Source: a virus
Strand: one strand, 5' to 3'
Length of the DNA stretch: 64,000 bases
IMG/VR virus record: IMGVR_UViG_3300042560_001323
Location: 179,167 to 243,166 of that record
Position numbers and translations under genes: made by a program. Below, one piece after another: positions 3,240 to 63,995 of the stretch (the stretch's first letter is position 1; the number at the start of each line of letters is the position of its first letter). Below the pieces are notes generated by a model. It saw only the letters and a program-made list of their open reading frames with translations, did not search any database and was not told the DNA's origin.

Positions 3240-3248
3240 TCTATTTAG
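3240..3248 (-). promoter_or_regulatory. Late promoter-like motif CTAAATAG
   Basis: Minus-strand CTAAATAGA lies over the portal stop codon and 21 bases before the gp67-like start. It matches the T4-like late promoter pattern seen at other gene junctions in the window. Confidence 0.45.
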
Positions 3249-6200: not shown

Positions 6201-6352
6201 TAAACACCTTCAACATCAACATAAGAACCAAAAAAGCCGGTTGTCAAATAATGATCGGAACCATCATCATTATTAGGGGGGACCGGCGAAATTATATTTT
6301 TAGATAATTTTTTATCGTTATCTTCAATAGAAAATCCAAATAATCTAGCCAT
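3245..6352 (-). CDS. 20: Portal vertex protein gp20 interrupted by an intein
   Basis: A 1035-residue precursor. Residues 1-348 and 809-1035 are the portal (T4 gp20 family): YREMALHHEVDSAI, NWYIDGRLYYHKL, the MIEDSVVIYRL and FYIDVGNLPK segments, and SSLGELSDLDYFKRNLYKALNVP with RLRKRFSQLFIDLLRTQL. Residues 349-808 are an intein placed after TTLPAG. The spliced portal would have 575 residues, normal for T4-like cyanophages (T4 gp20 has 524). The ring of 12 portals is the DNA entry vertex and docks the terminase. The C-terminus is a Pro/Gly-rich tail (KEPKMPKGGEI). The late motif CTAAATAAG lies upstream at 6376. Confidence 0.95.
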   Translation of the reverse strand: MARLFGFSIEDNDKKLSKNIISPVPPNNDDGSDHYLTTGFFGSYVDVEGVYRTEFDLIKRYREMALHHEVDSAIEDIVNEAIVSDTNDSPIEIELSNLNASDGIKNAIRQEFKAILEMLDFDKKSHEIFRNWYIDGRLYYHKLIDIKDPHAGIQDIRYVDAMKIRYVRQAKKQKKDILGPKMYGDQGPNEQVFPELEEYFVYSPKQTYPVGAAGMTAGAEKGIKFTKESIAYCTSGLVDRNKGTSLSYLNKAIKVLNQLRMIEDSVVIYRLSRSSEKRIFYIDVGNLPKPKAEQFLREQMMKYRNKMNYNSLTGEVDTSRKFMSLMEDFWFPRREGGRGTEVTTLPAGCLSMDTKVSLLDGRELTISEIESEMKNGEQLWTYSCHPSTGEFAPGLISWAGVTQKSAKVIKITLDNDESFVCTYDHKFPIYDLGFVEAKDLTVGQSMIPLHRKKEKISKSSSDYEMIYDNVDKTWKFTHRLIANRCKGSYCNDFIYEDKNEPKQTIHHIDLNRFNNNPDNLCFMGHFDHIHYHSKEINKIKKLFLESLKETNPELYLEYKKRASEARKRTWETITPEKREEWCLNIKNSQINHFKNLTEDEKEKKIETSIKNLEGASESLQEKLKDPDYNEWFRQQIRNSWTEEMKEEAANRSRESSQMRFSDPVYARQYKENHQERQKVAVSRSHFEFVKNIVIGKTTHQVKAIDVCNMLNENISMRNLFSELNANKSIPNVNVSNGFTVNIVRNMVKDFGYKNWHHFRMETKFYNHTITNIEYLTDEIEVGTLTIDSDESIHNYHTFALSCGIYTKNSSLGELSDLDYFKRNLYKALNVPETRIGGDSGFNLGRSTEILRDEVKFTKFVGRLRKRFSQLFIDLLRTQLLLKNIVTPEDWKKMAEHIQFDFLYDNHFAELKESELFTERLNMASMAEPYVGRYFSQDYLRRKILRQTDEEIIEQDEIMAKEIEDGIIPDPNAPVDPRTGLPIEVGMVPPEGTAATPQSPTAASSAGNNIKGQSGKVPVEPDIKPKEPKMPKGGEI
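3929..5308 (-). other. Intein with HNH endonuclease domain inside gp20
   Basis: This is 460 residues, from Cys349 (block A CLSMDTKVSLLDG) to Asn808, followed by Ser809 as the +1 nucleophile. Block B is FVCTYDHKF, with His in the expected place. The C-terminal blocks are VGTLTIDSDE ... FALSCGIYTKN. The penultimate residue is Lys, not the usual His. Between the splicing halves is an HNH nuclease core (TIHHIDLNRFNNNPDNLCF followed by HIHYH), then a Lys/Glu-rich helical DNA-binding stretch. It should excise itself by protein splicing, and the HNH domain should cut intein-less gp20 alleles (homing). Confidence 0.9.
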
Positions 6353-9279: not shown

Positions 9280-11046
9280 TTAATAATTGTAATTCCAGAA
9301 ATAAGAATAGTCGTCATCTGCTGTGTGCCAAAGATTACCCTCGCTGTCTCTCTCTGCTTCCAGATAATTATCATATAATTCTGCAATTTCATTTGGGAGG
9401 GAATCTGCTGAAGATACAAATCCAAATGGAGTTGAATCATTTTCTTCTAGTTCTTTTTCGTGCTCTTCTCTTAGTTTTTTGCGGATATCGGTTTCAGTCA
9501 TTTCTTTGAAATATTCCTGAGTGCTTATCCAAGCAAATAATACAAGGCAGATTGTCAGGTCATCATTTTTACCTTCTTCTGCACTAAAACTATTATAACG
9601 AGAAACAAATGTTGTAAGTTCTCCAATAATATCCCTATCGTTAAAAATAAGTTTATCTTCTTCAATAAATGTCTTTAAGTTTAAGCAACCAGTTCTTTTT
9701 ACTGGTTTAGACATCTTAATGCCATATTTAACACCCTTACCTGCTAAATTTTGACCTGCGACTTGTCCACCTCTACCCAAAGTTTTAGTTTGAATAACAT
9801 TAGGGTAACCATATTCAGTGTGAAGAATATATGCAACCTGGGAATCATTATTCACCTCACATAAAATAAATGCATCATTATATGCACGTCCAACTGGTTC
9901 AATAACATCTGGATATCTTAAACTTGGAATATCGTTGTTTCTATATTTTGCAACTACTCTATACGGAATCTGCGTCGTGTCAAATACAACAAATGCGGAA
10001 TAATCTAATTCAACACCTTCAGCAACGTCTACGGTAATAACATAGATTTTACCTGGCATTGGTTCTTCATAAACGTCAAGAAGGTCTTGGGTTCTTATTG
10101 GCGCTTCAACTACTAAATTGGAAAGTTTAGAACCGCTAATAAGGGTATCAGATGAGCCTAAAAATTCACACTCATATTCAGCATCCCAACGGGACTGTCC
10201 AATATTGGCAATAGTCTCTTCTTTAAAGGCAACATCATACTTATCTTGCCAATAAACGCGCATAGGAACATACTTGTTTATTCGCTTCAGTGCATCATCC
10301 CACAGCTTATAGTAGTGGTTCATACCCGCCGGGGTTGAAACGATAATAACTTTAGATTCTTTACCGGAAGTAATAGTCGGATATACCGAACTCATAAATT
10401 CATCGGCAACTTGGTGAGGGACGAAAGCAAATTCGTCAAGAAAAATAATATTGTATGAGCCACCTCTGACTGATGATGCCGAAGTTGATGCGGAAAAGAT
10501 TTTAGAACCATTTTCTATTTCTAATGATGCCTTATTCCAAGAGATAACTCCCTGTTGAAGCCACTTTGGAAGATTTTCGTATCCCCTCTGTAATCTGCTA
10601 AGAAGTTCCTTTGCGGTGCTTGCCTTGTTTGCTAGAACTGCAATATTTACGTTATCATTAAAAATAGCATAATGTAGTAGAAATGCCACCACTGCGGTTG
10701 AATTATGTGAGACAATATTATTAGTATAATAAATATTTCCATTTTCAACATCAATCAAGTCATACATATTCGACTTAACAGATGTTCTTTCTACAGATAA
10801 TATTTTTTCTAAACCTTCTTTTGTTTGTATTAAATCTCCAACCTTTAAATTTTTACAATAAATTTCATTCCAATTTTCGTCATATAGTATATGATTATCC
10901 GCACAAACTAGGGATGTTTCGTTTTCTGTTACTAAAATCCATTCCTCATATTCTATAGTTTTCCCTATTCCTGAAAAAGATTGCCACCCAGATGGCGTTT
11001 CAACTTCCCATTCATCTGTTAATAGTTCTTCTATAAATTTAGCCAT
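9280..11046 (-). CDS. 17: Large terminase gp17, C-half, fused to split-intein C-fragment
   Basis: A 588-residue ORF. Residues 1-115 are an intein C-fragment ending IVSHN; residue 116 onward begins STAVVAFLLHYAIF, the exact continuation of the Walker A motif that stops at ...RQVGK in the N-half gene (12539-12910). The rest is a full TerL: Walker B IIFLDEFAF followed by the STPAGMNHYYKLW coupling motif, and the RNase H-like nuclease with ITVDVAEGVELDYSAF and the late Asp of KNDDLTICL. After trans-splicing the terminase would have about 558 residues. It is the ATP-driven packaging motor and headful nuclease docking on gp20. The N-half lies 1.5 kb upstream beyond a TnpB gene, so an active enzyme depends on splicing in trans. 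Confidence 0.93.
   Translation of the reverse strand: MAKFIEELLTDEWEVETPSGWQSFSGIGKTIEYEEWILVTENETSLVCADNHILYDENWNEIYCKNLKVGDLIQTKEGLEKILSVERTSVKSNMYDLIDVENGNIYYTNNIVSHNSTAVVAFLLHYAIFNDNVNIAVLANKASTAKELLSRLQRGYENLPKWLQQGVISWNKASLEIENGSKIFSASTSASSVRGGSYNIIFLDEFAFVPHQVADEFMSSVYPTITSGKESKVIIVSTPAGMNHYYKLWDDALKRINKYVPMRVYWQDKYDVAFKEETIANIGQSRWDAEYECEFLGSSDTLISGSKLSNLVVEAPIRTQDLLDVYEEPMPGKIYVITVDVAEGVELDYSAFVVFDTTQIPYRVVAKYRNNDIPSLRYPDVIEPVGRAYNDAFILCEVNNDSQVAYILHTEYGYPNVIQTKTLGRGGQVAGQNLAGKGVKYGIKMSKPVKRTGCLNLKTFIEEDKLIFNDRDIIGELTTFVSRYNSFSAEEGKNDDLTICLVLFAWISTQEYFKEMTETDIRKKLREEHEKELEENDSTPFGFVSSADSLPNEIAELYDNYLEAERDSEGNLWHTADDDYSYFWNYNY
10702..11046 (-). other. Split-intein C-fragment (TerL)
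   Basis: This covers residues 1-115 of the C-half gene. It contains the block B-like TSLVCADNHILYD as well as the C-terminal blocks NMYDLIDVENGNIYYTNN and IVSHN with the +1 Ser. Because block B is on this piece, the split point lies just after block A, the 'atypical split' of metagenomic TerL inteins such as AceL-TerL. The fragment has its own ATG (MAKFIEELLTDEW). Confidence 0.88.
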
Positions 11047-11140: not shown

Positions 11141-12337
11141 CTATTGGGTTTCTAGACGCTTCATAGCAGATGCTAAATGATGTGAATCACCATTTAGTCT
11201 TAATTCCGCTCCACGCCAGTAATCGACGTACTCCGCCGATGAAATTTCTTTATCGGTTAGATTCCTCCAACCTTCCTTTAAAATATTAATAGAGGCATTC
11301 AAATCTCTATCGTGCTGACAACCACAAGAAAGACAAGTCCATTCCCTAACCGAAAGCTGCATCTTGTCTTCTTTATGACCACAGTTAGAACAAGTCTTAC
11401 TGGAAGGAAAGAATCGGTTAATTTTAACCAGGACTTTACCATACCAGTTGCACTTGTATTCCAACATAGAAACAAAAGTAGACCACGCCGCATCGCTAAT
11501 AGACTTCGCTAATTTATGGTTCTTCCGCATTCCAGAAACGTTCAAGTTTTCAAGAACTATCAAGTCAAAAGTGTTCACTAAAGCAGTAGACACATTATGA
11601 AGAAAGTAAGTTCTTGAATTAGTAATGAAATCGTGTACTTTAGCAACTTTAATTCGTTGCTTAATGTAGCGGTTACTACCTTTAGTTTTACGACTTAAAT
11701 GTTTCTGGGCTTTTTTTAGTTTCGCTTGGTTCTTGCGAAACCATTTAGGATTGTTAATGACTTGACCATTACTTAAAACCATCAGGTCTTTAATGCCCAA
11801 ATCAATACCTACTACCTTGCCGGTTGAGGGTATTGGATTGAGTTCTTGTTTTACCAGGATAGAAACAAAATACTTTCCTGTTGGTGTTTTAGAAACCGTG
11901 ATGATCCTGAAATCTGCATCCTCCGGGATTTCACGGTCAATAACAACTTTAATCCAACCAATTTTCTCAAGTCTTACCAGACCGTTTTCTTGGTCTAAAA
12001 CGAACTTTTGATTGGGTAATCTAAAAGACTGCCGATTAGATTTTTTCTTAAAAGAAGGTCTACCTAGTTTGATTTTACGTTTTTTATTGAAAAACTGTTT
12101 CTCAAATTCAATAAAGTCATTTCTTTTCTGTTGAAGGGTAGCGGCAGAAACTTCTTTAAGAAACTCAAATTCAGGAGTGTCTTTTAATGTCTTTTCTGTA
12201 ACTACTTCTTTTGTCTGACTATTGAAGTTCTCAACAAGTTTATTCCAAACAAACCTGCAACAGCCGAAAGTTTTCGCTAATATAACTTCTTGTTCTTTAT
12301 CTGGATAAATCCGAAACTTGTATGCTTTTAAGTGCAT
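11141..12337 (-). CDS. tnpB: TnpB RNA-guided nuclease (IS605 OrfB family), copy 1
   Basis: A 398-residue protein with the family's N-terminal MHLKAYKFRIYPDKEQ and the helix-turn-helix start with FVWNKLVENFN. The split RuvC acidic residues are in VVGIDLGIKDL (Asp), IVLENLNVSGM (Glu) and CQHDRDLNASINIL (Asp), and the four-Cys zinc ribbon is CSNCGHKED ... WTCLSCGC. All catalytic residues are present, so it should be active. TnpB uses an omega-RNA, made from the 3' end of the gene and the element's right end, to cut DNA next to a short motif. Position between split-intein gene halves suggests a homing role. It is highly similar to the gene at 41635-42831. Confidence 0.95.
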   Translation of the reverse strand: MHLKAYKFRIYPDKEQEVILAKTFGCCRFVWNKLVENFNSQTKEVVTEKTLKDTPEFEFLKEVSAATLQQKRNDFIEFEKQFFNKKRKIKLGRPSFKKKSNRQSFRLPNQKFVLDQENGLVRLEKIGWIKVVIDREIPEDADFRIITVSKTPTGKYFVSILVKQELNPIPSTGKVVGIDLGIKDLMVLSNGQVINNPKWFRKNQAKLKKAQKHLSRKTKGSNRYIKQRIKVAKVHDFITNSRTYFLHNVSTALVNTFDLIVLENLNVSGMRKNHKLAKSISDAAWSTFVSMLEYKCNWYGKVLVKINRFFPSSKTCSNCGHKEDKMQLSVREWTCLSCGCQHDRDLNASINILKEGWRNLTDKEISSAEYVDYWRGAELRLNGDSHHLASAMKRLETQ

Positions 12338-41634: not shown

Positions 41635-42831
41635 CTATTGATTTCCTAAACGCTTCACAGCAGATGCTAAAGGGTGAAAATCACCGCTCAGTCTTAATTC
41701 CGCTCCACGCCAGTAATCGACGTACTCCGCCGATGAAAGTTCTTTATCGGTTAGGCTGCGCCAACCTTCCTTTAAAATATTAATAGAGGCATTCAAGTCT
41801 CTATCGTGTTTTGAACCGCAAGACGGACAAGTCCATTCCCGAATTTTTAAAGGCATCTTGTCTTCCTTATGTCCACAAGAACTACAAGTCTTACTGGAAG
41901 GAAAGAATCGGTTAATTTTAACCAGGACTTTGCCATACCAATCACACTTATACTCTAACATAGTAACAAAAGTAGACCAAGAGGCATCCGAGATTGATTT
42001 GGACAACTTGTGATTCTTCAACATCCCAGAAACATTCAAGTCTTCAACCGAAATTACATCAAAAGTTCTAACCAGAGCTGTTGAGATGTTATGGAGAAAG
42101 TAAGTTCTGGAATTGGTAATGTATTCGTGTATTCTAGCAACTTTAATACGTTGCTTAATGTAACGATTACTGCCTTTAGTCTTGCGACTTAAATGCTTCT
42201 GGGCTCTTTTGAGTTTCGCTTGGTTCTTGCGAAACCATTTAGGATTGTTAATGGCTTGACCGTTTGAAAGAATGAACAAGTCTTTAATACCCAAATCAAT
42301 ACCTACTACCTTGCCGGTAGAGGGTATTGGATTGAGTTCTTGCTTAACCAGAATAGAAACGAAGTATTTACCGGTTGGAGTTTTAGAAACCGTGATGATC
42401 CTGAAATCTGCATCCTCCGGGATTTCACGGTCAATAACAACTTTAACCCAACCAATTTTCTCCAGTCTAACCACTGAATTTTCTTGGTCTAACTTGAACT
42501 TTTGATTGGGAAGTCTAAAAGACTGACGATTTGATTTCTTCTTAAAAGAAGGCCGTCCTAATTTGGCCTTTCTTTTCTTATTGAAAAACTGTTTCTTGAA
42601 CTCAATAAAGTCATTTCTTTTTTGTTGAAGTGTAGAAGCTGAAACTTCTTTAAGAAACTCAAATTCTGGAGTGTCTTTTAATGTCTTTTCGTTAATAAAT
42701 TCCTTAGAGTTACTGTTGAAGTTTTCAACGAGTTTATTCCAAACAAACCTGCAACAACCGAAAGTCTTCGCCAGTAAAACTTCTTGCTCTTTATCTGGAT
42801 AAATCCTGAACTTGTATGCTTTTAAGTGCAT
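41635..42831 (-). CDS. tnpB: TnpB RNA-guided nuclease (IS605 OrfB family), copy 2
   Basis: A 398-residue protein, same length as copy 1 and highly similar along its whole length. RuvC residues are intact (VVGIDLGIKDL, ISVEDLNVSGM, SKHDRDLNASINIL), and the zinc ribbon is CSSCGHKED ... WTCPSCGS. The differences are scattered substitutions without frame damage, as expected if both copies are kept active. The bases just past 41606 (TTATAAGGAAATAG...) would be its guide if the omega-RNA model applies. Confidence 0.95.
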   Translation of the reverse strand: MHLKAYKFRIYPDKEQEVLLAKTFGCCRFVWNKLVENFNSNSKEFINEKTLKDTPEFEFLKEVSASTLQQKRNDFIEFKKQFFNKKRKAKLGRPSFKKKSNRQSFRLPNQKFKLDQENSVVRLEKIGWVKVVIDREIPEDADFRIITVSKTPTGKYFVSILVKQELNPIPSTGKVVGIDLGIKDLFILSNGQAINNPKWFRKNQAKLKRAQKHLSRKTKGSNRYIKQRIKVARIHEYITNSRTYFLHNISTALVRTFDVISVEDLNVSGMLKNHKLSKSISDASWSTFVTMLEYKCDWYGKVLVKINRFFPSSKTCSSCGHKEDKMPLKIREWTCPSCGSKHDRDLNASINILKEGWRSLTDKELSSAEYVDYWRGAELRLSGDFHPLASAVKRLGNQ

Positions 42832-48086: not shown

Positions 48087-48562
48087 TCAACCAATAGTTG
48101 GGGCTTTTAGAGCAATTTCTTGAGTAGAAACTGCAGCCAAATCTACACTTGACCCATAAGTTTACCATTCTTATGGAGTGGACTATATCATCACCCTTTA
48201 AGGTGTCGGACGCTTATTCCTGTTATTAAGGGAACTATATCCCCCAGGTAGTCTCTGAAGTTTCCTTGAGTGTACTCAAGGCTCACCTGCTGATTGCCCA
48301 TGTTTTTGGGGGGGGGGGTTCCAGCAATTCACCCAGTTTCGTCAATACTCTTACGAGTAAGGGACACCGATTAAAACTTAATGTCCACGGGAGGTGCTGC
48401 AATAAATGCTAAAATAAAGCAAATAGTAGCAGCAAGTAAACAGGGAATCATAAGAACCGAAAAATGCCCAAGATAGAGGCGATTATTCGTACTTGTTACC
48501 CAATTAAGATAACGTTCCCAGAGGTTGTCGCCAGAACGGCGTGTAGCAATTGTAGCAGTCAT
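48087..48562 (-). pseudogene. psbA: psbA (photosystem II D1) remnant: two ends around a group I intron
   Basis: The first 61 codons from ATG at 48562 are D1 ([34 protein letters not shown]). The last codons, ending at 48087, are the D1 C-terminus (DLAAVSTQEIALKAPTIG). Between them are only about 235 bases with group I intron features. D1 has about 360 residues, so roughly 280 codons, including all transmembrane helices after the first and the Mn-cluster and quinone ligands, are missing. The reading frame of the first exon ends 2 codons into the intron. A cyanophage psbA normally replaces host D1 during infection; this copy cannot. Confidence 0.88.
48146..48379 (-). ncRNA. Group I intron (ORF-less) in psbA
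   Basis: On the minus strand the core elements appear in order: P-like AATTGCTGGAA, Q-like GGGCAATCAGCAGG, R-like TTCAGAGACTACC and S-like GATATAGTCCACTCC, where GACTA and TAGTC form P7. No endonuclease ORF is present. An 11-base G/C homopolymer (48308-48318) lies in a loop. The exact splice sites cannot be fixed by eye; the 5' site follows the I61 codon closely and the 3' site lies just before GATTTGGCTG. An ORF-less psbA group I intron is known from cyanophage S-PM2. Confidence 0.75.
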
Positions 48563-48631
48563 ATTTGAAAATAGGGTAGAAAAAGTTCGTAGGGACGAAC
48601 GTGTTTATTATTTCTTCTCACCCCTAGAGAA

Positions 48632-48684
48632 GATATGAGAGACGTATTTGACGTGCAAAGTCTCGGTAAGCACGAGCAGCAATG
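48632..48684. repeat. 53-bp direct repeat, copy 1
   Basis: It is 52/53 identical to 49200-49252. On the minus strand it can be read as IAARAYRDFARQIRLSYLL before a stop, which looks like the end of a lost gene. It lies just upstream of psbA. Confidence 0.9.
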
Positions 48685-48710
48685 AAGTTTATGTTATTAT
48701 TTTGTAATAA

Positions 48711-53452: not shown

Positions 53453-53460
53453 TGTTTGCA

Positions 53461-53475
53461 CCGGCAACCTGCCGG
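53461..53475 (-). promoter_or_regulatory. Leader hairpin CCGGCA-GGT-TGCCGG
   Basis: The hairpin is 8 bases upstream of the ATG at 53452. The only AGG that could serve as Shine-Dalgarno is at the stem/loop junction, so the hairpin may control translation. An identical hairpin at the same distance precedes the gene at 56044. Confidence 0.5.
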
Positions 53476-53530
53476 GGCTGAACTACCCTGTAAGAATACA
53501 GCATCCACAACCGGAACGGTCGGAATAACC

Positions 53531-53646
53531 GATAAGCATTGCTAATGGTTGAGGACTTGACAGGCTGGGCTGGTTCTGTTATTATAGTTTCATACAAGGA
53601 AACCAGCGCAAGAAGCGCATCATATAAGCGGCCACAATAAACCTGC
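53531..53646 (+). promoter_or_regulatory. Intergenic promoter repeat, block A
   Basis: In plus-strand order: GATAAGC block (53531), TTGACA (53557), 17-base spacer, TATTAT (53580), hairpin GCGC-AAGAA-GCGC (53606-53618), and the conserved GGCCACAATAAACCTGC (53630-53646). It points away from the gene starting at 53452. Confidence 0.65.
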
Positions 53647-53679
53647 TCGTTAATAACACTATAAAAAGTATAAAGAAAA

Positions 53680-53697
53680 GGCCCGCAATCGCGGGCC
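53680..53697 (-). terminator. Rho-independent terminator
   Basis: Stem GGCCCGC/GCGGGCC with ATCG-type loop, followed on the minus strand by TTTTCTTT. It terminates the 44-residue gene at 53717. Confidence 0.8.
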
Positions 53698-53716
53698 TGT
53701 AGGGTATGCTGGCAGA

Positions 53717-53851
53717 TCAATCAATCCAGGCCAGCCACGCTGCCGCAACAGCATGGGGAACCATTAGCATCCCGCCCGCGATGGGGCCAGCCGGAACCGC
53801 CAGCACGGCCAGCACGGCGGCGGTGGCAAGCAGGCAATGGCGGCGATTCAT
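53717..53851 (-). CDS. Tiny membrane or secreted peptide
   Basis: A 44-residue ORF. The N-terminus MNRRHCLLATAAVLAVLAVP has the positive start and long hydrophobic stretch of a signal peptide or membrane anchor, followed by AGPIAGGMLMVPHAVAAAWL, a second hydrophobic stretch. It has its own leader, terminator and upstream promoter repeat (block B), so it is a free-standing gene. The function is unknown; host-envelope targeting is possible. Confidence 0.55.
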   Translation of the reverse strand: MNRRHCLLATAAVLAVLAVPAGPIAGGMLMVPHAVAAAWLAWID

Positions 53852-53910
53852 GGGAGGAATCCTAAACTGCTCCGCCATCCTACAACATCGGCGGCCAGAT
53901 CAGCCGGATT

Positions 53911-54023
53911 GAACGATCAGAATTGCTGATCGTTCCAGGGCTTGACGGATCGGCCATTCCATCCTATAGTATATTCAACAACGAAAGACGAGCGGGCGAA
54001 CCGCGATGATACAAACGGCCACG
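53911..54023 (+). promoter_or_regulatory. Intergenic promoter repeat, block B, with operator-like palindrome
   Basis: A perfect inverted repeat GAACGATCAG/CTGATCGTTC (53911-53935, 5-base loop) lies just before TTGACG (53942), then a 17-base spacer and TATAGT (53965). The hairpin GCGG-GCGAA-CCGC is at 53992-54004, followed by CGGCCACG. It starts 60-90 bases upstream of the gene at 53851, pointing away. The palindrome could bind a dimeric repressor. Confidence 0.6.
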
Positions 54024-54306
54024 TTAATTCTGCCTTCTAATAATAAGAAATGAGGAGATCATCAAGATTCATCGGAGGAACTTTTAAGGTCTCCTAATAA
54101 TAGTCTATTTTAGGCCAGCCGTAGTTAGTGTGTGTGCCAACTGTCAAACCGTCACCAGAGGCACCCAGAAGCCCCTAGAAGGTGCTACAATACAGTGAGA
54201 CAAGTAAAGACAGCAGGCGAACCGCATTTATATAAATTAGCACAATAAACCAGCCTTGAGATAATAAAATATAAAGAAAGGCCCGCGATTGCGAGCCCAT
54301 TGGTTA
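54024..54306. other. Gap with degenerate promoter repeat and terminator
   Basis: No supported gene. A degenerate copy of the intergenic repeat is visible (TACAAT at 54186, GGCGAACC hairpin remnant near 54216, CACAATAAACCAGCC at 54241). The stem GGCCCGC/GCGAGCC at 54280-54298 is the terminator of the minus-strand gene at 54307. Confidence 0.55.
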
Positions 54307-54738
54307 TCAATAAACCACTTCAATGACGGCACATTGAAGTAAGCCACGGGGTTCAAGTCTGATAGAATCGCCATAATCGGACTTGATGCACGGAATGTTA
54401 TTCCAACCCAGTTCATATTTCACCGCCCGAATGATAGCAAGATCCGTTTTCTTGCCGAGAATTGGCACCTCAAACCTCCTATCGGTGGTGTTCACTTCAC
54501 CACCAAATAATCCGTAAACAGTAACCATAACCGATGGCACTTGTTCATAGCTGATACTATCAACACAATAATTGGCATAATCTGTTACTGCCTCCACTAT
54601 ATCATCCTCCCCATCAACAATGAATACCTTATTGCTAAACCTTTTATTGTAGTCTGTGGTTTTTTCTTGAGTGAGTTCTTCATCTTCACAGTCGGTGCTA
54701 AAGTCGAACTCAACTTTGGTGATTCTGTAAGCTGGCAT
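54307..54738 (-). CDS. Hypothetical protein
   Basis: A 143-residue alpha/beta protein (AYRITKVEFDFSTDCEDEEL, KVFIVDGEDDIVEAVTDYAN, VMVTVYGLFGG, DLAIIRAVKYELGW). No catalytic pattern was recognised. Terminator at 54280-54298 and promoter repeat D 91 bases upstream. Confidence 0.6.
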   Translation of the reverse strand: MPAYRITKVEFDFSTDCEDEELTQEKTTDYNKRFSNKVFIVDGEDDIVEAVTDYANYCVDSISYEQVPSVMVTVYGLFGGEVNTTDRRFEVPILGKKTDLAIIRAVKYELGWNNIPCIKSDYGDSIRLEPRGLLQCAVIEVVY

Positions 54739-54801
54739 TGATCCGAATCTGAATGTCCCACTAACAATAAACTGTTTTCGTCAGTGTGTCAATGGTTGTT
54801 T

Positions 54802-54918
54802 GATAAGCATTACTGATCATTCGGGGGCTTGACATACTGGATTGGTTCGGTTATTATAGTTTCATACAAAGAAAACCAGCGGAAGAACCGCTACAAATAA
54901 GAGGCCACGATAAACCTG
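54802..54918 (+). promoter_or_regulatory. Intergenic promoter repeat, block D
   Basis: GATAAGC block (54802), TTGACA (54829), 17-base spacer, TATTAT (54852), hairpin GCGG-AAGAA-CCGC (54879-54891), GGCCACGATAAACCTG (54903-54918). A stem followed by T-rich sequence at 54951-54980 would end a plus-strand RNA of about 110 bases. Confidence 0.65.
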
Positions 54919-54950
54919 TCTTTCATTATTAGAATATAAACAATACAAAA

Positions 54951-54980
54951 AGGCTTCCAGATTGGAAGCCTTTATTATAT
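54951..54980. terminator. Bidirectional terminator
   Basis: Stem AGGCTTCC/GGAAGCCT with A-run before and T-rich sequence after, so it can stop the minus-strand gene at 55020 and the plus-strand transcript of block D. Confidence 0.8.
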
Positions 54981-55019
54981 TTTAGGAGTTGACTAATTGT
55001 TATAGTCAACCCCACAGAC

Positions 55020-55148
55020 TTACCGGCAGTCAGTGATAACGACGGTCATTGGGCGGGGGCGTGCCAATGCAGCCGGAACACCATTTGGGCGGTAAACCGG
55101 GCGGGGGGCAGGTTGACGGACAGGGCGGGGGGTGAGTGTGGCAGCCAT
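55020..55148 (-). CDS. Small Pro/Arg-rich peptide
   Basis: A 42-residue ORF (MAATLTPRPVRQPAPRPVYR, PNGVPAALARPRPMTVVITD, CR). It is rich in Pro-Arg pairs and probably unstructured. It has its own promoter (minus-strand TTGACG, about 18-base spacer, TAGGAT) and terminator, which argue that it is real. The function is unknown. Confidence 0.5.
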   Translation of the reverse strand: MAATLTPRPVRQPAPRPVYRPNGVPAALARPRPMTVVITDCR

Positions 55149-55179
55149 GGGGGGTGATAGGCTTGGAACTCCATCATCC

Positions 55180-55210
55180 TACACCACAGACCGCCAAACC
55201 GTCAACCAAT
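55180..55210 (-). promoter_or_regulatory. Sigma70-like promoter for the 42-residue peptide
   Basis: Minus-strand TTGACG, 18 bases, then TAGGAT (within TGTAGGAT), about 37 bases upstream of the ATG at 55148. TGTAGGAT-like sequences also precede genes at 53851 and 56044. Confidence 0.5.
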
Positions 55211-55350
55211 CGGGGGCCATTGGTCAGAAAATGCTCACACTAGGACGGTTTCATAGATTATCGGTGATTCTATCCGACTGACAGAACCATCCTACCTGGC
55301 TAGCCAGAACACCACAAAAACCAAAAGTATAATAAAACCCGCAGACAATA

Positions 55351-55380
55351 AAAAGGCCAGGGTTATTAACTCCCTGGCGC
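55351..55380 (-). terminator. Rho-independent terminator
   Basis: Minus-strand stem GCCAGGG/CCCTGGC followed by TTTTT, after the stop of the gene at 55403. The gap 55211-55350 shows no gene. Confidence 0.85.
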
Positions 55381-55402
55381 CGGTTATACTGGAGCCCGAA
55401 AA

Positions 55403-56044
55403 TCACTCCGGGAACTGCGAAGAATATGAAGGAAGTATGTTTACTTTCATACAATGTTCAAACGGAATATCACCTTCCATAGGATTGAACACATACCATT
55501 CGTGGTCCCTCTGGAATAACTGACAACCGCAATAACGCATCAGGATTCTATTCATTCGCTCTTTAGTTGAGCGGCTCCTTTTAATAGGATCATATAGTGT
55601 TACTCTTCCTAATACAGGAGCATAAAGGGCAATTAGCTTACCATGATGCATAAAATGAATCAGCTCAAAGATAGAGCCTACATCCGTAGCCTTAATTTCA
55701 TCGTTATTTTTCTTATAGTTGACACGATTCTCAGCATAGAATATCATCGTCTTGATACAATCTGCCCCGCCGCGATCGTTCATAAGATCCTGGCGTTGTT
55801 GCCAGTGTTTGATCTTAAGAACCGCCTCGTAATACTCTGTGAAGCATAGACGCTCGGCCCCATCTTTATTCAACCGAGTATAACCAGCCGTGCGGACTTT
55901 CTCTCCTTTAGTATAATGAAATGCCTTGTGGTGCGCTAGAAGAGTAGAACCCGTGAGGCGTTTCTGTGGAAACTCTATAGGCAGTTGCTCCATAGGAGCC
56001 TGGCGAAACATTACAGGCGGAAAGGTGCGGGTGATAAGATCCAT
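55403..56044 (-). CDS. Hypothetical protein
   Basis: A 213-residue protein. The ATG at 56044 is chosen because a leader hairpin lies 8 bases before it; an in-frame TTG further up is inside that hairpin. Segments include HHKAFHYTKGEKVRTAGYTR, ERLCFTEYYEAVLKIKHWQQ, YRVNYKKN-type and MRYCGCQLFQRDHEWYVFNP. A similar 'RDHEWYVFNP' ending (KDYVWYCDKGEFED) closes the protein at 59155, so the two may share a C-terminal domain. The function is unknown. Confidence 0.6.
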   Translation of the reverse strand: MDLITRTFPPVMFRQAPMEQLPIEFPQKRLTGSTLLAHHKAFHYTKGEKVRTAGYTRLNKDGAERLCFTEYYEAVLKIKHWQQRQDLMNDRGGADCIKTMIFYAENRVNYKKNNDEIKATDVGSIFELIHFMHHGKLIALYAPVLGRVTLYDPIKRSRSTKERMNRILMRYCGCQLFQRDHEWYVFNPMEGDIPFEHCMKVNILPSYSSQFPE

Positions 56045-56052
56045 CTGGGAAA

Positions 56053-56067
56053 CCGGCAACCTGCCGG
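56053..56067 (-). promoter_or_regulatory. Leader hairpin CCGGCA-GGT-TGCCGG
   Basis: Same hairpin, same distance (8 bases) from the start codon as at 53461-53475. Confidence 0.5.
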
Positions 56068-56123
56068 TGCTTTGTTTGCCTGCTTATCCTACAGCATCGG
56101 CAAGCATTCCGGCCGTTTCCGTT

Positions 56124-56240
56124 GATAAGCACTACTAATGGTTCGGGGTCTTGACAGACAGTGTTGAATGGGTTATTATAGTTTCATACAAGGAAACCAG
56201 CGCAAGAAGCGCATCATATAAGCGGCCACAATAAACCTGC
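56124..56240 (+). promoter_or_regulatory. Intergenic promoter repeat, block E
   Basis: GATAAGC block (56124), TTGACA (56151), 17-base spacer, TATTAT (56174), hairpin GCGC-AAGAA-GCGC (56200-56212), GGCCACAATAAACCTGC (56224-56240). It is nearly identical to block A over 70 bases. Confidence 0.65.
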
Positions 56241-56272
56241 TTCTTAATAAGAAAATATAACATATAAAGAAA

Positions 56273-56294
56273 GGGGAAGGAATGCTCCCTCCCC
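56273..56294 (-). terminator. Rho-independent terminator
   Basis: Minus-strand GGGGAGGGA / TCCTTCCCC with CCTTTCTTT tail, after the gene at 56303. The same terminator sequence type recurs at 58133 and 58807. Confidence 0.75.
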
Positions 56295-56302
56295 GGTTAT
56301 AC

Positions 56303-56686
56303 TCAGTCTGCAATCGTCGGACATTTAATACCTTCCCACGCCCTTGAATAATTATCAATAACCTTGTCAATGAGTGATTCTAGCTTAGGGTGATAAGTGT
56401 AATCACAGACAATCTCTTCCGGTTCATGGTCGAGAACAATCCACAATCTAGCCCGCATTCCGTCTTTGTTAATGTAGACTGTGGCCGCATCTACTGAAAC
56501 TACAATATCTGTAGCAGCATGGCGGATTTTTGTATTAGATTGCTCTTGGTCAATCTTGATAGTCTCCTCGCCATCATTTACAGCAGTGATAGCGAATCCT
56601 TCCTGTTGAAACTTGGCAAGAAGAGACCTAACGGGAACCGACCAATTAAAAGCCGTTTGGAAAGGTTCCAATTTGTGGCTAGCCAT
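56303..56686 (-). CDS. Hypothetical protein
   Basis: A 127-residue protein with alternating strands (SLLAKFQQEGFAITAVNDGE, ETIKIDQEQS, ATVYINKDGMRARLWIVLDH) and a C-terminal helix (HPKLESLIDKVIDNYSRAWE). The pattern is a small alpha/beta protein seen in other phage accessory regions. The function is unknown. The two-box promoter motif lies about 25-70 bases upstream. Confidence 0.6.
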   Translation of the reverse strand: MASHKLEPFQTAFNWSVPVRSLLAKFQQEGFAITAVNDGEETIKIDQEQSNTKIRHAATDIVVSVDAATVYINKDGMRARLWIVLDHEPEEIVCDYTYHPKLESLIDKVIDNYSRAWEGIKCPTIAD

Positions 56687-56709
56687 GATGTAATTCCTGA
56701 AGACTCTTT

Positions 56710-56770
56710 AAGAATACCAGAATTGAGAGACCGGGGCTCTTAGTGTGTGCCAGTTCAACAACTGGCACAC
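56710..56770 (-). promoter_or_regulatory. Two-box promoter motif with perfect palindrome
   Basis: Minus strand: AACTGGCACAC (56745-56755), 26 bases, GGTATTCTT, then the gene at 56686. The upstream box is doubled as a perfect inverted repeat with an 11-base arm and 4-base loop (56745-56770), as expected for a regulator-binding site. Confidence 0.5.
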
Positions 56771-56813
56771 ACAGCCTGCTTTTGCTGCTCACATAAATAA
56801 TACCAAAAAACCT

Positions 56814-56987
56814 TTAATTGTTCCAGGAATGAATACGCTTCCGGCGGCCGTCTTCCTGGATTTCCCATAGATTGCCGCGCCATACATTAAACCCGTAGGC
56901 ATAATGTAGGTTACCGGTAGTGATCTTAAACCTTTTTCCCTTCCGGTCGATTCCGGTGATAACGTAGCTGGTGGCGGGAGTTGCCAT
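56814..56987 (-). CDS. Small hypothetical protein
   Basis: A 57-residue ORF (MATPATSYVITGIDRKGKRF, KITTGNLHYAYGFNVWRGNL, WEIQEDGRRKRIHSWNN). Basic and beta-rich; the pattern 'YVITGIDRxGKRFKI' and 'NxWRGxLWEIxxDGRRKRI' is that of a short cyanophage/host conserved protein. Its leader shares 29 identical bases with that of the gene at 57931. The function is unknown. Confidence 0.6.
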   Translation of the reverse strand: MATPATSYVITGIDRKGKRFKITTGNLHYAYGFNVWRGNLWEIQEDGRRKRIHSWNN

Positions 56988-57187
56988 GGTCTGTGGTGCG
57001 GTTGACCTTCATACAATAGCACCGGGAAGCCCGACCCGTCAAGCATCTGTCAGCGATTGCCCACACTTGAGCGGAAACTCTTTTTATCGTAGATTCTGGC
57101 GGAACCGATGGGCTATCCTACCCTTGCCACCAGAATACGAAAAAACAGAAAGTATAGTAAACCATTGGCCATTCTTAATTACAATAA

Positions 57188-57222
57188 AAAGGGCCAGAGG
57201 GATTCTTATATCCCCCGGCCCG
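57188..57222 (-). terminator. Rho-independent terminator
   Basis: Minus-strand GGGCCGGGGGA ... TCCCTCTGGCCC followed by TTTTTATTG, after the gene at 57242. The rest of 57019-57187 shows a degenerate intergenic repeat and no gene. Confidence 0.8.
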
Positions 57223-57241
57223 TTATACTATCGGTTAGGTA

Positions 57242-57931
57242 TCACCGTGCCCCACACAATGCACGGGTTTGGCTACCTGATGTTTGACGATGTAGACTTG
57301 CATTCGCTCCAGCACTGGAGCCTAATTGAGCGGCAATTCCACTAGCCCGAGATGTACGATGGGTCCGAAGTTTAAGACGAGCGATCACTACTGCAGTGTG
57401 TTCCTTATCGGGATGATCCGCACGATTGAGTTTCATTTCATACAACCGATCTCGCACCATGGCTGCGTATTGTTTACAGAAATTGGATCGGAATCCGTAG
57501 GCACTATAGGAATTGCCCTTCAATTCTGCTAATACCTTCTCACCAGCAATTGCAGTCTCACACTCCCGGATCATACAACCCTTCAGGAAATCGTAGTATA
57601 AACGAACCTGAATCTGTTGCGCCTCTGTGCCAATACACTTAAGAGTTGTAACCTTCCTTCCAGTTTGATGGCTAGGGCTGGACATACCGAGAGCATCATA
57701 AAACCGGGCGATTGCACAAAAAAGAATAAGATGCGATTCGTCAAGTTTCTTATAAGTCTCAAACGCTTCAGTAAGAACCTCAGGTGTATTGACATCATCA
57801 ATTGTTACACCGTGTTGTTTACACAGTTTATCAATAAGTGTGGCGGCAGCATTAGCCTCGCCATCAAAACCAGTTGATTCTTGCAGCCTGAGCATGGCTG
57901 AAATTTTCTTAAGAATGGCTTGACGATCCAT
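57242..57931 (-). CDS. DUF2786-family protein
   Basis: A 229-residue protein. Residues 1-45 (MDRQAILKKISAMLRLQEST, FDGEANAAATLIDKLCKQHG) are the DUF2786 signature, seen in many phage and plasmid proteins. The centre (ESHLILFCAIARFYDALGM, VRLYYDFLKGCMIRECE) matches the domain that usually follows. The C-terminus is basic (RLKLRTHRTSRASG). The ATG at 57931 is preferred over the longer frame because the conserved domain begins there. The molecular function is unknown. Confidence 0.75.
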   Translation of the reverse strand: MDRQAILKKISAMLRLQESTGFDGEANAAATLIDKLCKQHGVTIDDVNTPEVLTEAFETYKKLDESHLILFCAIARFYDALGMSSPSHQTGRKVTTLKCIGTEAQQIQVRLYYDFLKGCMIRECETAIAGEKVLAELKGNSYSAYGFRSNFCKQYAAMVRDRLYEMKLNRADHPDKEHTAVVIARLKLRTHRTSRASGIAAQLGSSAGANASLHRQTSGSQTRALCGAR

Positions 57932-57934
57932 TGA

Positions 57935-57963
57935 TCTGTGGTGCGGTTGACCTTCATACAATA
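57935..57963 (-). repeat. 29-bp leader repeat shared with 56990-57018
   Basis: These 29 bases are identical to 56990-57018, each ending 2-3 bases before a start codon. On the minus strand it contains GTATGAAGGTC. It may be a common translation leader copied between genes. Confidence 0.75.
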
Positions 57964-57995
57964 ACCGATTAGGAGCCCTTTGAAAGGGTTTCATT

Positions 57996-58103
57996 GATTA
58001 GCAATGCTTATTGTTCTAAGGCTTGACATACTGGCTGGAATCTGTCATACTGTATTCAACAGGCGGAAGAACCGCGACAGATAAAGTGACACAATAAGCC
58101 TGC
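57996..58103 (+). promoter_or_regulatory. Intergenic promoter repeat, block F
   Basis: GATTAGC block (57996), TTGACA (58023), 17-base spacer, CATACT (58046), hairpin GCGG-AAGAA-CCGC (58063-58075), GACACAATAAGCCTGC. It lies 92 bases upstream of the DUF2786 gene, pointing away. Confidence 0.6.
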
Positions 58104-58132
58104 TTCTTAATAAAATATACAGAATAAAGAAA

Positions 58133-58154
58133 GGGGAAGGATTATTCCCTCCCC
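58133..58154 (-). terminator. Rho-independent terminator
   Basis: Minus-strand GGGGAGGGA / TCCTTCCCC-type stem with T-rich tail after the gene at 58184. Confidence 0.75.
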
Positions 58155-58183
58155 GATAAGTATGAGAATCGTTTTAGTATTGC

Positions 58184-58417
58184 TTATGCATACCAGTTTG
58201 CGGCAATTTCCTTTGCATTGTCTCCAAGAAAAATATGAAAAGCACGATTAGGTGATCTACCGAGAATTTGACAACAGCGTTTCAATTCGTCTCCATCCGC
58301 TTGCACTTGGACGTAGGCTTCATAAGCCATATTGACGGTTGATGCTAAACCATTGTCGCCAATGTGGCCGTTTACATTATAATTTGAATGGCTGGCACAT
58401 GTAGTGAAGAAAATCAT
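58184..58417 (-). CDS. Hypothetical protein
   Basis: A 77-residue protein (MIFFTTCASHSNYNVNGHIG, STVNMAYEAYVQVQADGDEL, HIFLGDNAKEIAANWYA). The middle is helical. No motif identified. It is followed by its own terminator. Confidence 0.5.
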   Translation of the reverse strand: MIFFTTCASHSNYNVNGHIGDNGLASTVNMAYEAYVQVQADGDELKRCCQILGRSPNRAFHIFLGDNAKEIAANWYA

Positions 58418-58468
58418 TGAAGGGAAGCGATTGGGTTGGAAAGGAAACCGGGAAACTTCTTGTTGTAA

Positions 58469-58690
58469 TCAATAGGCGTGAAATACCTCTAGGATCTTAC
58501 CGTTTTGAACAATCTTGGCATGAGGATAGAATACCCATTTTGAACCAACATTGTTGATTGCATCATAAGCATCTTCTAATGTTTCGTAAACCCCATCTCT
58601 AACTTGTTCATCATCGTCATTGAAAAAGTAAACAATTAGATCATCTTCTGAAACCAAATTGGCGGGTCTTTTGTTGAAAAAGGTGAACAT
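58469..58690 (-). CDS. Hypothetical protein
   Basis: A 73-residue protein (LVSEDDLIVYFFNDDDEQVR, DGVYETLEDAYDAINNVGSK, WVFYPHAKIVQNGKILEVFH). The pattern of a short strand, an 'ETLEDAYDAI' helix and two strands ending in G-K-I resembles small proteins that record or modify sequence features in phage accessory regions, but no function is known. Confidence 0.5.
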   Translation of the reverse strand: MFTFFNKRPANLVSEDDLIVYFFNDDDEQVRDGVYETLEDAYDAINNVGSKWVFYPHAKIVQNGKILEVFHAY

Positions 58691-58806
58691 TGGATGCCTG
58701 GGGGTGACTTATGAATAATAGGGCACCTAGAAGCCTCTCTAGGTGCCGCTGGTGACACTTATTAAGCTGGCACACTAGCCCTTGACTTCAGGACAGAATA
58801 GAGAAA

Positions 58807-58828
58807 GGGGAAGGATTGCTCCCTCCCC
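58807..58828 (-). terminator. Rho-independent terminator
   Basis: Minus-strand GGGGAGGGAGC / TCCTTCCCC stem with TTTCTC tail, after the gene at 58843. Confidence 0.7.
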
Positions 58829-58842
58829 GATAAGTATGAGAT

Positions 58843-59052
58843 TCAATAACAACCATACCCCATTAGCATAATTTCCTGTCCGATTAACTGTTCACAATCT
58901 CCACTTTCTTTGGCATCATTGGTGGTAACGGTGTACCTAATTGGCCCGAGATTGATTTCCCTTGGATGACCGCCGCCGTTAAATCCATCCAAAATCATTA
59001 TTTCGTGATTCGGACCTTTGAGTAAACGTTGAGCGAGTTCGTGGGCTTTCAT
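58843..59052 (-). CDS. Small phage protein with GFNGGGHPREINLGP motif
   Basis: A 69-residue protein starting MKAHELAQRLLKGPNHEIMI. The ATG at 59052 is preferred; the longer frame has no coding look and no ribosome site. The 'KAxELAQxLLxGPxxEIMI ... GFxGGGHPREIN' pattern recurs in small phage proteins of unknown function. Confidence 0.65.
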   Translation of the reverse strand: MKAHELAQRLLKGPNHEIMILDGFNGGGHPREINLGPIRYTVTTNDAKESGDCEQLIGQEIMLMGYGCY

Positions 59053-59071
59053 TTTCAGCTCAGAAAAGTGG

Positions 59072-59136
59072 GTGACTTGTATAGAATACCCGTTTATCGG
59101 GTTAAGTGTTGGAAGTGTTGGAAGTGTGCGCCAGTT
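59072..59136 (-). promoter_or_regulatory. Two-box promoter motif
   Basis: Minus strand: AACTGGCGCACAC, about 33 bases, GGGTATTCTATACAAGTCA, then the gene at 59052. The spacing is longer than in the other copies. Confidence 0.35.
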
Positions 59137-59154
59137 GTTTAACCGGCACATTGT

Positions 59155-59493
59155 TCAGCTAATTGCAAACTCCATATTATCTTCAAACTCTCCTTTATCA
59201 CAATACCATACATAATCCTTCTGGAAGATTCCACCCAGGTTGTAATGATGCAGGATAGAATTCAACCGACTTTTGGTTGTTTTTGTCGCCCAACCACAAG
59301 AAGAAAGAATCATCTTATTGCCAGGGAAGATGCTGGCAATCTTATGGCCGTGAAGTTTAACTTGAATCTCCTTTTGATAAGAATGTGTCCCGTGAATGCC
59401 ATTGTGAACAACCTCTACTGATGTGTTATCTTTCCGCCAATCGGTCTCATTTGAGATGGCTCGGATCATCTGTTGCTCAATGATGCGAGACAT
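59155..59493 (-). CDS. Hypothetical protein
   Basis: A 112-residue protein (MSRIIEQQMIRAISNETDWR, KEIQVKLHGHKIASIFPGNK, STKSRLNSILHHYNLGG-type helix, YVWYCDKGEFEDNMEFAIS). The second half looks like the end of the 213-residue protein at 55403 (QLFQRDHEWYVFNP). Both promoter types found in this zone lie upstream. The function is unknown. Confidence 0.55.
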   Translation of the reverse strand: MSRIIEQQMIRAISNETDWRKDNTSVEVVHNGIHGTHSYQKEIQVKLHGHKIASIFPGNKMILSSCGWATKTTKSRLNSILHHYNLGGIFQKDYVWYCDKGEFEDNMEFAIS

Positions 59494-59510
59494 TGCGGTT
59501 GGAGCTGCTT

Positions 59511-59562
59511 ACTTGTATAGAATACCAGGATTGAAGCCTTGTGCTCCTATTGTGTGCCAGTT
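59511..59562 (-). promoter_or_regulatory. Two-box promoter motif
   Basis: Minus strand: AACTGGCACAC, 25 bases, GGTATTCTATACAAGT, ending about 18 bases before the ATG at 59493. Confidence 0.5.
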
Positions 59563-59593
59563 GTTGAACCGTCCACCTGGCCGGTTAAACCGT

Positions 59594-59664
59594 CTTAATT
59601 CGTGCCATACTGTATTCATTGGGCGGAAGAACCGCGACAGATAAAGAGCCACAACAAACCTGCC
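59594..59664 (+). promoter_or_regulatory. Intergenic promoter repeat, block G
   Basis: A weaker copy with no TTGACA; CATACTGTATTCA (59606) as in block F, hairpin GCGG-AAGAA-CCGC (59633-59645), AGCCACAACAAACCTGCC. It lies about 100 bases upstream of the gene at 59493. Confidence 0.5.
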
Positions 59665-59693
59665 GTTTTATAGTCATATAAATAATACCAAAA

Positions 59694-60777: not shown

Positions 60778-60914
60778 TGTTGGCCGGCTGGGGGTTCTTT
60801 ATACTTTGTGATTTTTCGGTGATTCTATTTGCGGGCGGGTGTTCGTGTGCATTTGGTGCAGGGTTGTTGATCGTTTTATATAAGGCGGGCCAAGTCCACT
60901 AAGACTGGCCACAC
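60778..60914. other. Gap, no gene found
   Basis: GT-rich spacer leading into the tandem-repeat array. It contains a CTAAGACTGGCCACACGA segment like those inside the degenerate repeats at 61155-61290. Confidence 0.5.
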
Positions 60915-61154
60915 GAGAACTATTTTTAATAAGAGAGAACTATTTTTAATAAGAGAGAACTATTTTTAATAAGAGAGAACTATTTTTAATAAGAGAGAAC
61001 GGATTTTAATAAGAGAGAACGGATTTTAATAAGAGAGAACGGATTTTAATAAGAGAGAACTATTTTTAATAAGAGAGAACTATTTTTAATAAGAGAGAAC
61101 TATTTTTAATAAGAGAGAACTATTTTTAATAAGAGAGAACTATTTTTAATAAGA
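60915..61154 (+). repeat. Array of twelve 20-bp tandem repeats
   Basis: The unit is GAGAACTATTTTTAATAAGA. Two variants alternate in blocks: four units with CTATTTTTAAT, three with CGGATTTTAAT, then five with CTATTTTTAAT; otherwise the units are identical. Each unit has a single AATAAGA box and an AT-rich core. Confidence 0.95.
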
Positions 61155-61290
61155 AGAAATGACTATAAACAGTTTACAATAAGACTAGCCAACATAAAAT
61201 GACTTTTAATAAGAAGGAATAGCTATAAACAGTTTACACTAAGACCGGCCACACAATAATGACTTTTAATAAGATATACCAACTAAGAAT
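61155..61290 (+). repeat. Two degenerate ~60-bp repeats after the array
   Basis: Two units share CTATAAACAGTTTACA followed by CTAAGAC/ATAAGAC, GGCCA/AGCCA, and TGACTTTTAATAAG. They keep the AATAAGA box of the 20-bp units and the GGCCACA box of the intergenic promoter repeats. Confidence 0.8.
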
Positions 61291-61363
61291 GGTTCTCAAT
61301 AAGATACTTTTGGATACTATCCAAAAACACCATAAAAAACAATAATAAACGATTAAACAATAA

Positions 61364-63380: not shown

Positions 63381-63995
63381 TCAACCGGCCGCAAAACCTT
63401 CAAACATCGGTAGAAAAACAGGTTTCTCAATACCTCCAATTAGTTCATAAGTGGCAGACCCGGCGGCAGACCCGGCGGCATCCCAGGCGGCATCCCCGGC
63501 GGCAGACCCGGCGGCATTCCTGGCGGCATACCAGGCGGCAGACCCGGCGGCATTCCTGGCGGCAGACCAGGCGGCATAGTCTAGGGCGCGGTAGCGGCGG
63601 GCAACTTCTTTCCATTGGTCGGCAGTAAGACTATCCATGAACCACCAGAAGTTAAGGACCGCCCGGTAGTTCTTGCCGATGTATTTCTTGGGATTGGTTA
63701 GAACATCAGACGGGGCTCCAGGTTCACCATCGTTAATTCTGCGAAGAAGAACCGAATGTGCAACTGAAATACCGAGCAGTCGGGCAACTTCTTGGTCGGC
63801 TTTAGATTGTTCGGTGTTGCGGAGCTGTTCCTCGCTATAACCGCCAATCTTGTATAGTACCTGACCTTGAGCACACATACAGGTTGTTGGTTCTTTACCA
63901 TCTTTAGGTGGTTCACTGGAGATAAGACTATTCTTAAAGGGGATGTTGCGGGGATCTTCCCAGAAAGCCAGAAGTGTTTCGGCTGCGGTGTTCAT
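63381..63995 (-). CDS. Hypothetical protein with Ala/Trp repeats, same family as 49307-49969
   Basis: A 204-residue protein. Residues 101-130 ([30 protein letters not shown]) are the conserved family core. Residues 135-185 are tandem repeats of a 5-10-residue Ala unit ([21 protein letters not shown]) encoded by near-identical GGC/GCC-rich DNA. The C-terminus is [27 protein letters not shown] segment lies near residue 40. The repeats should form an extended amphipathic helix. The function is unknown. Confidence 0.65.

Follow-up and report, generated by a model that had tools for sequence, protein, structure and literature searches.

Repeat blocks in the spacers of a T4-like cyanophage

The DNA analysed here (the window, 64,000 nucleotides) covers the final 64 kb of an IMG/VR virus record 243,166 bases long, corresponding to a T4-like cyanophage. 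Synechococcus phage B23, also T4-like, comes from a subarctic lake and infects the Synechococcus-Cyanobium complex (PMC7171214); the tail sheaths of the two phages exhibit 65% identity. Portal-like and terminase-like ORFs (3245-6352 and 9280-11046, minus strand) appear with intein-like insertions, and two closely similar 398-aa proteins (11141-12337 and 41635-42831, minus strand) have the look of TnpB-type nucleases. A gene for an alanine-rich repeat protein of about 200 aa is present in several near-copies at both record ends (63381-63995 and L005 4141-6171, minus strand). A tandem array of 20-base units (GAACTATTTTTAATAAGA-like) occupies 60875-61304.

Between 53.5 and 59.7 kb, where the genes lie on the minus strand and are mostly without known function, we identified seven copies of a repeat block, all on the plus strand (Table 1). 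An earlier note on this DNA had described at least six spacers with the same order of parts; the copies proved to be seven, with the claimed order in only five. TTGACA followed after exactly 17 bases by TATTAT, TATAGT or CATACT is found in A, B (as TTGACG), D, E and F. Blocks C and G lack both the -35 and the GATAAGC block, and exhibit in their place an extended -10 preceded by an element of GTGCCA type. TTGACA is thus not a defining part of the family, being absent from C, G, most copies of a related contig (G011, see below) and all scored copies of phage B23. The compensatory stems are as described before, GCGC/GCGC in A and E and GCGG/CCGC in B, D, F and G; the AAGAA-type loop, held to be constant, recurs in the copies so described except B, which has GCGAA. 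The reported position 90-107 bases upstream of a minus-strand gene is the distance from TTGACA to ATG. The gene on the gene side of block C looks lost, and a search on the gene adjoining block E found no loci or phage records.

Table 1. Parts of the seven window blocks and of the promoters opposite them
Feature	Position	Strand	Description
Block A	53528-53666	+	dyad GATAAGCATTGCTAATGG; TTGACA-17-TATTAT (53557-53585)
Block A hairpin	53606-53618	+	GCGC-AAGAA-GCGC; linker end CACAATAAACCTGC (~53646)
Gene-side -10 opposite A	53493-53498	-	TATTCT; 81 bases from block -10
Terminator hairpin, gene converging on A	53679-53698	-	U-tract on gene strand, weak on block strand
Block B	53912-54053	+	near-perfect dyad CGATCAGAATTGCTGATCG; TTGACG-17-TATAGT
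Block B hairpin	53992-54004	+	GCGG-GCGAA-CCGC
Gene-side -10 opposite B	53877-53882	-	TAGGAT; 82 bases from block -10
Block C	54140-54274	+	GTGCCA-type upstream element; without TTGACA; extended -10 TGCTACAAT
Block C hairpin	54213-54225	+	one A-C mismatch
Gene-side -10 opposite C	54097-54102	-	TATTAT; 83 bases from block -10
Block D	54799-54939	+	dyad; TTGACA-17-TATTAT
Block D hairpin	54878-54892	+	AGCGG-AAGAA-CCGCT
Terminator after D	54949-54973	both	good on both strands
Gene-side promoter opposite D	54764-54769 (-10)	-	TTGACA-17-TATTGT; 82 bases from block -10
Block E	56121-56260	+	dyad; TTGACA-17-TATTAT
Block E hairpin	56200-56212	+	GCGC-AAGAA-GCGC
Gene-side -10 opposite E	56086-56091	-	TAGGAT; 82 bases from block -10
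Block F	57993-58120	+	dyad; TTGACA-17-CATACT; short leader
Block F hairpin	58063-58075	+	GCGG-AAGAA-CCGC
Gene-side -10 opposite F	57958-57963	-	TATTGT; 82 bases from block -10
Block G	59560-59683	+	GTGCCAGTT-type element; without TTGACA; extended -10 TGCCATACT
Block G hairpin	59623-59635	+	GCGG-AAGAA-CCGC
Gene-side -10 opposite G	59519-59524	-	TATTCT; 81 bases from block -10

A seven-copy profile run across the record gave strong matches solely at 53.5-59.7 kb, together with two weak left-end matches to the promoter parts only. A covariance model built from the seven window copies alone (R1), searched against 24 cyanophage records, matched the IMG/VR contig G011 (best E-value = 2e-15) and phage B23 (best E-value = 4e-5). 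Since a model from window copies alone finds an independent contig and phage B23, chance is excluded; the repeat family is a real, well-conserved module. Contigs G032 and G033 were added by pattern scans. With a second, wider model (R2), the copies numbered 7 for the window, 9 (clear ones) for G011, 6 for G032, 5-6 for B23 and 6-7 for G033. By eye, one further degenerate copy was recognised in B23. Counting the window virus, the five phage records together have about 36 known copies.

The wider model found nothing convincing in other relatives including S-SCSM1, S-SM2, RB11-B, DSL-LC03, S-SCSM2R, P-TIM68 and the freshwater phage S-CRM01. About 40 other cyanophage records gave no copy of the family; many of these are fragments, and absence from the fragmentary IMG/VR records is weak evidence. 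A host origin was not borne out: 16 cyanobacterial genomes gave no match (a weak result, the run having no positive control genome), and 201 genomes of one family gave a single match at E = 0.009, the chance expectation. When the window hairpin and motif were taken together as an exact pattern for scanning IMG/VR, seven matches were returned, all by chance. We found no description of the family in the open-access text searched; the B23 genome announcement reports short repeat insertions/deletions between B3 and B23 and mentions no such element.

Geometry of the probable two-way promoters

Five of the seven window blocks score 10-11 of 12 against a TTGACA-17-TATAAT-like sequence, as expected for sigma70-type early promoters; the remaining ones rely on the extended -10 without a -35. 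In the whole family, TTGACA is present in a minority of copies. In 22 modules from three phages, the gene strand was scored for a second -10 element with at least 4 of 6 matches to TATAAT. The distance from -10 to -10 is 81-84 bases (about 8 helical turns) in 17 of the 22 scored modules and in all seven window blocks, against a maximum of 10 conforming modules in 1000 trials with shuffled upstream sequences. In some exceptions the distance is longer by roughly one helical turn (94 bases) or two (102-103 bases). Where the dyad is clear, its centre lies 41-43 bases from each -10. Two dyad types, GATAAGC-like and GTGCCAGTT-like, occur with identical geometry. Both arms are plain in some G011 spacers, which read TATTCT...TTGACA on the gene strand, the dyad GATAAGCACTGCTGATGG, then TTGACA...TATACT on the block strand. 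The genes next to the blocks of B23 run opposite to them, as in the window.

The fixed distance and the central dyad are those of a divergent promoter pair, for which a shared operator is predicted. The earlier note had the block pointing the other way from its gene; the orientation is correct, but it was misread, the block pointing away from the gene because it would be one arm of such a pair. Taken jointly with the structured RNA discussed below, such an arrangement, with the central dyad shared between the arms and the two -10 elements at a fixed distance, is somewhat probable. A string of small genes in this lake cyanobacterial virus and its close relatives thus appears to be started from two-way promoters of fixed geometry.

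The left-end sites (AAGAACTGCTTATC...TTGACA-17-TATTCT) are oriented like the genes that they drive and lack a hairpin; the dyad with its promoter therefore looks like a general early promoter of the window phage, and the hairpin part like an addition. A perfect palindrome, GTGCCAGTTCAACAACTGGCAC (56746-56770), lies upstream of gene 56303-56686 as a clean operator of the second type without a block.

Operator-centred divergent promoters such as lambda pR/pRM and phi29 A2b/A3 consist of two back-to-back promoters around shared regulator sites, and the modules resemble them in this arrangement. They differ in occurring 7-10 times per genome, in the constant 81-84-base -10 spacing, in the two interchangeable dyad types, and in having one arm that is apparently non-coding.

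The block arm: hairpin, linker and 3' end

In nearly all copies, the hairpin begins 11-23 bases after the block -10. Its stems are GCGC/GCGC, GCGG/CCGC, GCGA/TCGC, GCGT/GCGC, GCGC/GCGT, AGAGC/GCTCT, AGAGG/CCTCT and AGAGCC/GGCTTT. Across 34 distinct aligned rows, pairing holds in 99.2% of cells, and the covariation score is 0.458 against 0.134 for shuffled rows and at most 0.14 for slid structures. The alignment was fitted to the hairpin model, the stems being nonetheless readable in the raw sequence; both-sided change occurs in only two of its four stem pairs. These are compensatory changes that preserve a helix, as in structured RNAs. On the block strand, 14 distinct stems comprise 58 Watson-Crick and 4 G-U pairs with no mismatch. 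Read on the minus strand, the four wobble pairs are broken, giving 4 mismatches. The confinement of G-U pairs to the block strand therefore points to an RNA of that strand. The earlier proposal that an RNA is selected named covariation in further copies as a check; the further copies keep the covariation, in support of the proposal.

A short inverted repeat near a promoter might instead be a DNA-level dyad, either a protein binding site or a replication element. We regard this as very improbable: the stem core varies (GCGC, GCGG, GCGA, GCGT, AGAGC, AGAGCC) with pairing kept, whereas a binding site should keep its sequence, and the wobbles occur solely as G-U on the block strand.

Between B23 and G033, spacers that are orthologous have mostly identical flanks with the hairpin replaced as a unit. 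At one locus GCGCAGAAGCGT becomes GCGGGAAACCGC (GCGC..GCGT to GCGG..CCGC), and at another the leader and hairpin are replaced together. One locus of G011 and G032 likewise exhibits GCGAACGACTCGC versus GCGGACGAACCGC (GCGA..TCGC to GCGG..CCGC) within mostly identical flanks. Such in-place swaps look like exchange between family members, constrained to stay paired.

The swaps bear on whether the block arm is a by-product of the promoter, its divergent transcription keeping the operator underwound or occupied and the hairpin merely protecting a short transcript. Promoter geometry is indeed the strongest regularity of the family, and gene-only modules with the same operator and no block arm exist. 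We nevertheless judge a by-product quite unlikely: the stem is kept through the swaps, and in nearly all copies the hairpin is followed by a 28-29-base linker ending in CCTGC, a distance that persists through large sequence change.

The leader has no conserved ORF, and peptide coding was rejected on this ground. Minimum-energy folding of the leader does not predict the hairpin in several copies. Some folds show a further hairpin that ends in CCUGC; its register differs and the AGAGC class lacks it, so it is not claimed here. A different hairpin, ACCGGCAACCTGCCGGT (or ACTGGCA..TGCCAGT), lies just before the start codon of some genes (53455-53485 and 56050-56070 in the window; L123 9548-9570). 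On the mRNA this hairpin includes GCAGGTT, the complement of AACCTGC in the block RNA, a match that may be due to chance.

In most copies, a hairpin 22-31 bases downstream of CCTGC is the terminator of the converging gene. Among 32 such hairpins, a good tail (at least 5 T) is found in 27 on the gene strand and in 11 on the block strand. A discrete RNA of about 100 bases, put forward earlier as a possibility, is plausible for some copies only, a U-rich tail on the block strand being present in just those 11. The weakness of the block-strand terminator in most copies implies that the RNA may run on as antisense. One G011 copy precedes a helicase-like gene in the same direction, with no terminator between them; it could equally be a leader or a free RNA.

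Lambda-type nut/boxB leaders carry, in the nascent 5' RNA, a small hairpin with a purine-rich loop, its stem variable between phages. The blocks share these properties, and differ in having no recognised boxA, no downstream genes on the block strand and no identified N-like protein. The hairpin and linker may accordingly be conceived as a cis-acting leader (like lambda nut or HK022 put, or a stabiliser) on a longer antisense transcript, with which polymerase passes the convergent terminator and silences the gene. The mostly weak block-strand terminators, the codirectional G011 copy, and a small hairpin near the 5' end with a purine-rich loop of 4-6 bases at constant spacing from a conserved single-stranded motif agree with this reading. 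However, no genes are seen downstream on the block strand, no clear boxA was seen by eye, and for some blocks (D in the window, several in B23) the terminator ahead is good on either strand. We consider a cis-acting leader unlikely.

We favour a bidirectional early promoter module: two sigma70-type -10 elements at a distance of 81-84 bases, with a putative dyad operator halfway between them. A small early gene would be started from the gene arm. The block arm would start an RNA at least about 75 bases long, which carries a hairpin at its 5' end and a linker that ends in CCUGC. One dimeric regulator bound at the dyad would control both arms. The block RNA would be a structured non-coding RNA, most likely acting in trans, with dosage provided by the 6-10 copies and the RNA most likely binding a single phage or host partner. 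The geometry, hairpin, strand preference, conservation and assortment, all read from sequence, make the bidirectional promoter with a structured RNA on its block arm the better bet, if not a strong one. The trans-acting step, taken alone, is put forward tentatively. A more far-reaching reading, which we think improbable, is an undescribed class of multi-copy phage RNAs, diversifying by in-place hairpin exchange and acting in trans on the host, for example by titration of a defence component or an RNA-binding protein. In this reading, a bidirectional promoter would couple each copy to a small early gene.

Assortment of modules and comparison with known RNAs

The blocks are modular units ahead of single genes, as the earlier note had suggested. 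For genes 52617, 56303 and 58184, which have no block in the window, the relatives in G011 or B23 do have one; gene 59155 is the reverse case, with a block in the window and none in G011. Genes 55403 and 57242 keep the block with a changed dyad class between orthologues. Since orthologous genes differ in both block and operator class, the gene, the operator and the RNA arm assort separately. MITE/REP-like elements have terminal inverted repeats and target duplications and insert at scattered sites. The blocks occur only in promoter spacers and keep register with the promoter of the gene; some genes have a block where their orthologue has none, but no empty-site junction could be made out. The whole looks like an undescribed, movable control module with an RNA family. 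A second type of block may be present in two more spacers (55190-55400 and 57050-57230), which have another sequence in common, ATCCTACC...CCAGAA...AAAGTATA.

Large cyanophages contain many small genes of unknown function, and a uniform two-way module with exchangeable operators would offer a route to their joint gain and regulation. The RNA arm is a candidate new phage RNA family, carried on exchangeable bidirectional promoters and absent from Rfam. As B23 is a cultured phage, transcription, structure and knock-down of the RNA are directly testable.

In the Rfam scans, no family reaches threshold for any block. There is some likeness to the RsmY sRNA (RF00195), against whose full model block A scores 30.6 bits; shared are the GCGC hairpin and a hairpin that acts as terminator. 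A CsrA-titrating sRNA of this kind, which would have repeated GGA motifs, was rejected, the gathering score being 57 bits and the hairpin loop having no GGA; RsmY has an AGGA motif where block A has AAGA. No RsmY match was reported for block E, which has the same core. With regard to a solitary CRISPR-repeat RNA (anti-CRISPR RNA), no CRISPR family appeared in the Rfam scans at E-values up to 0.5-5.

The cyanophage RNAs listed previously are CfrI, PhotoRC-II, wcaG, manA, glnA and abiF (PMC9964418). The last five, which are in Rfam, resemble the blocks as structured RNA elements of T4-like cyanophages; the blocks match none of them. Those RNAs are single leaders or an sRNA, in contrast to a multi-copy family on divergent promoters. 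The window itself contains a group I intron and a PhotoRC-II element around a 63-aa psbA first exon (48154-48390, 48600-48687 and 48371-48562, minus strand), and contig G011 exhibits four group I intron matches at the corresponding place next to PhotoRC-II (L123 662-2929).
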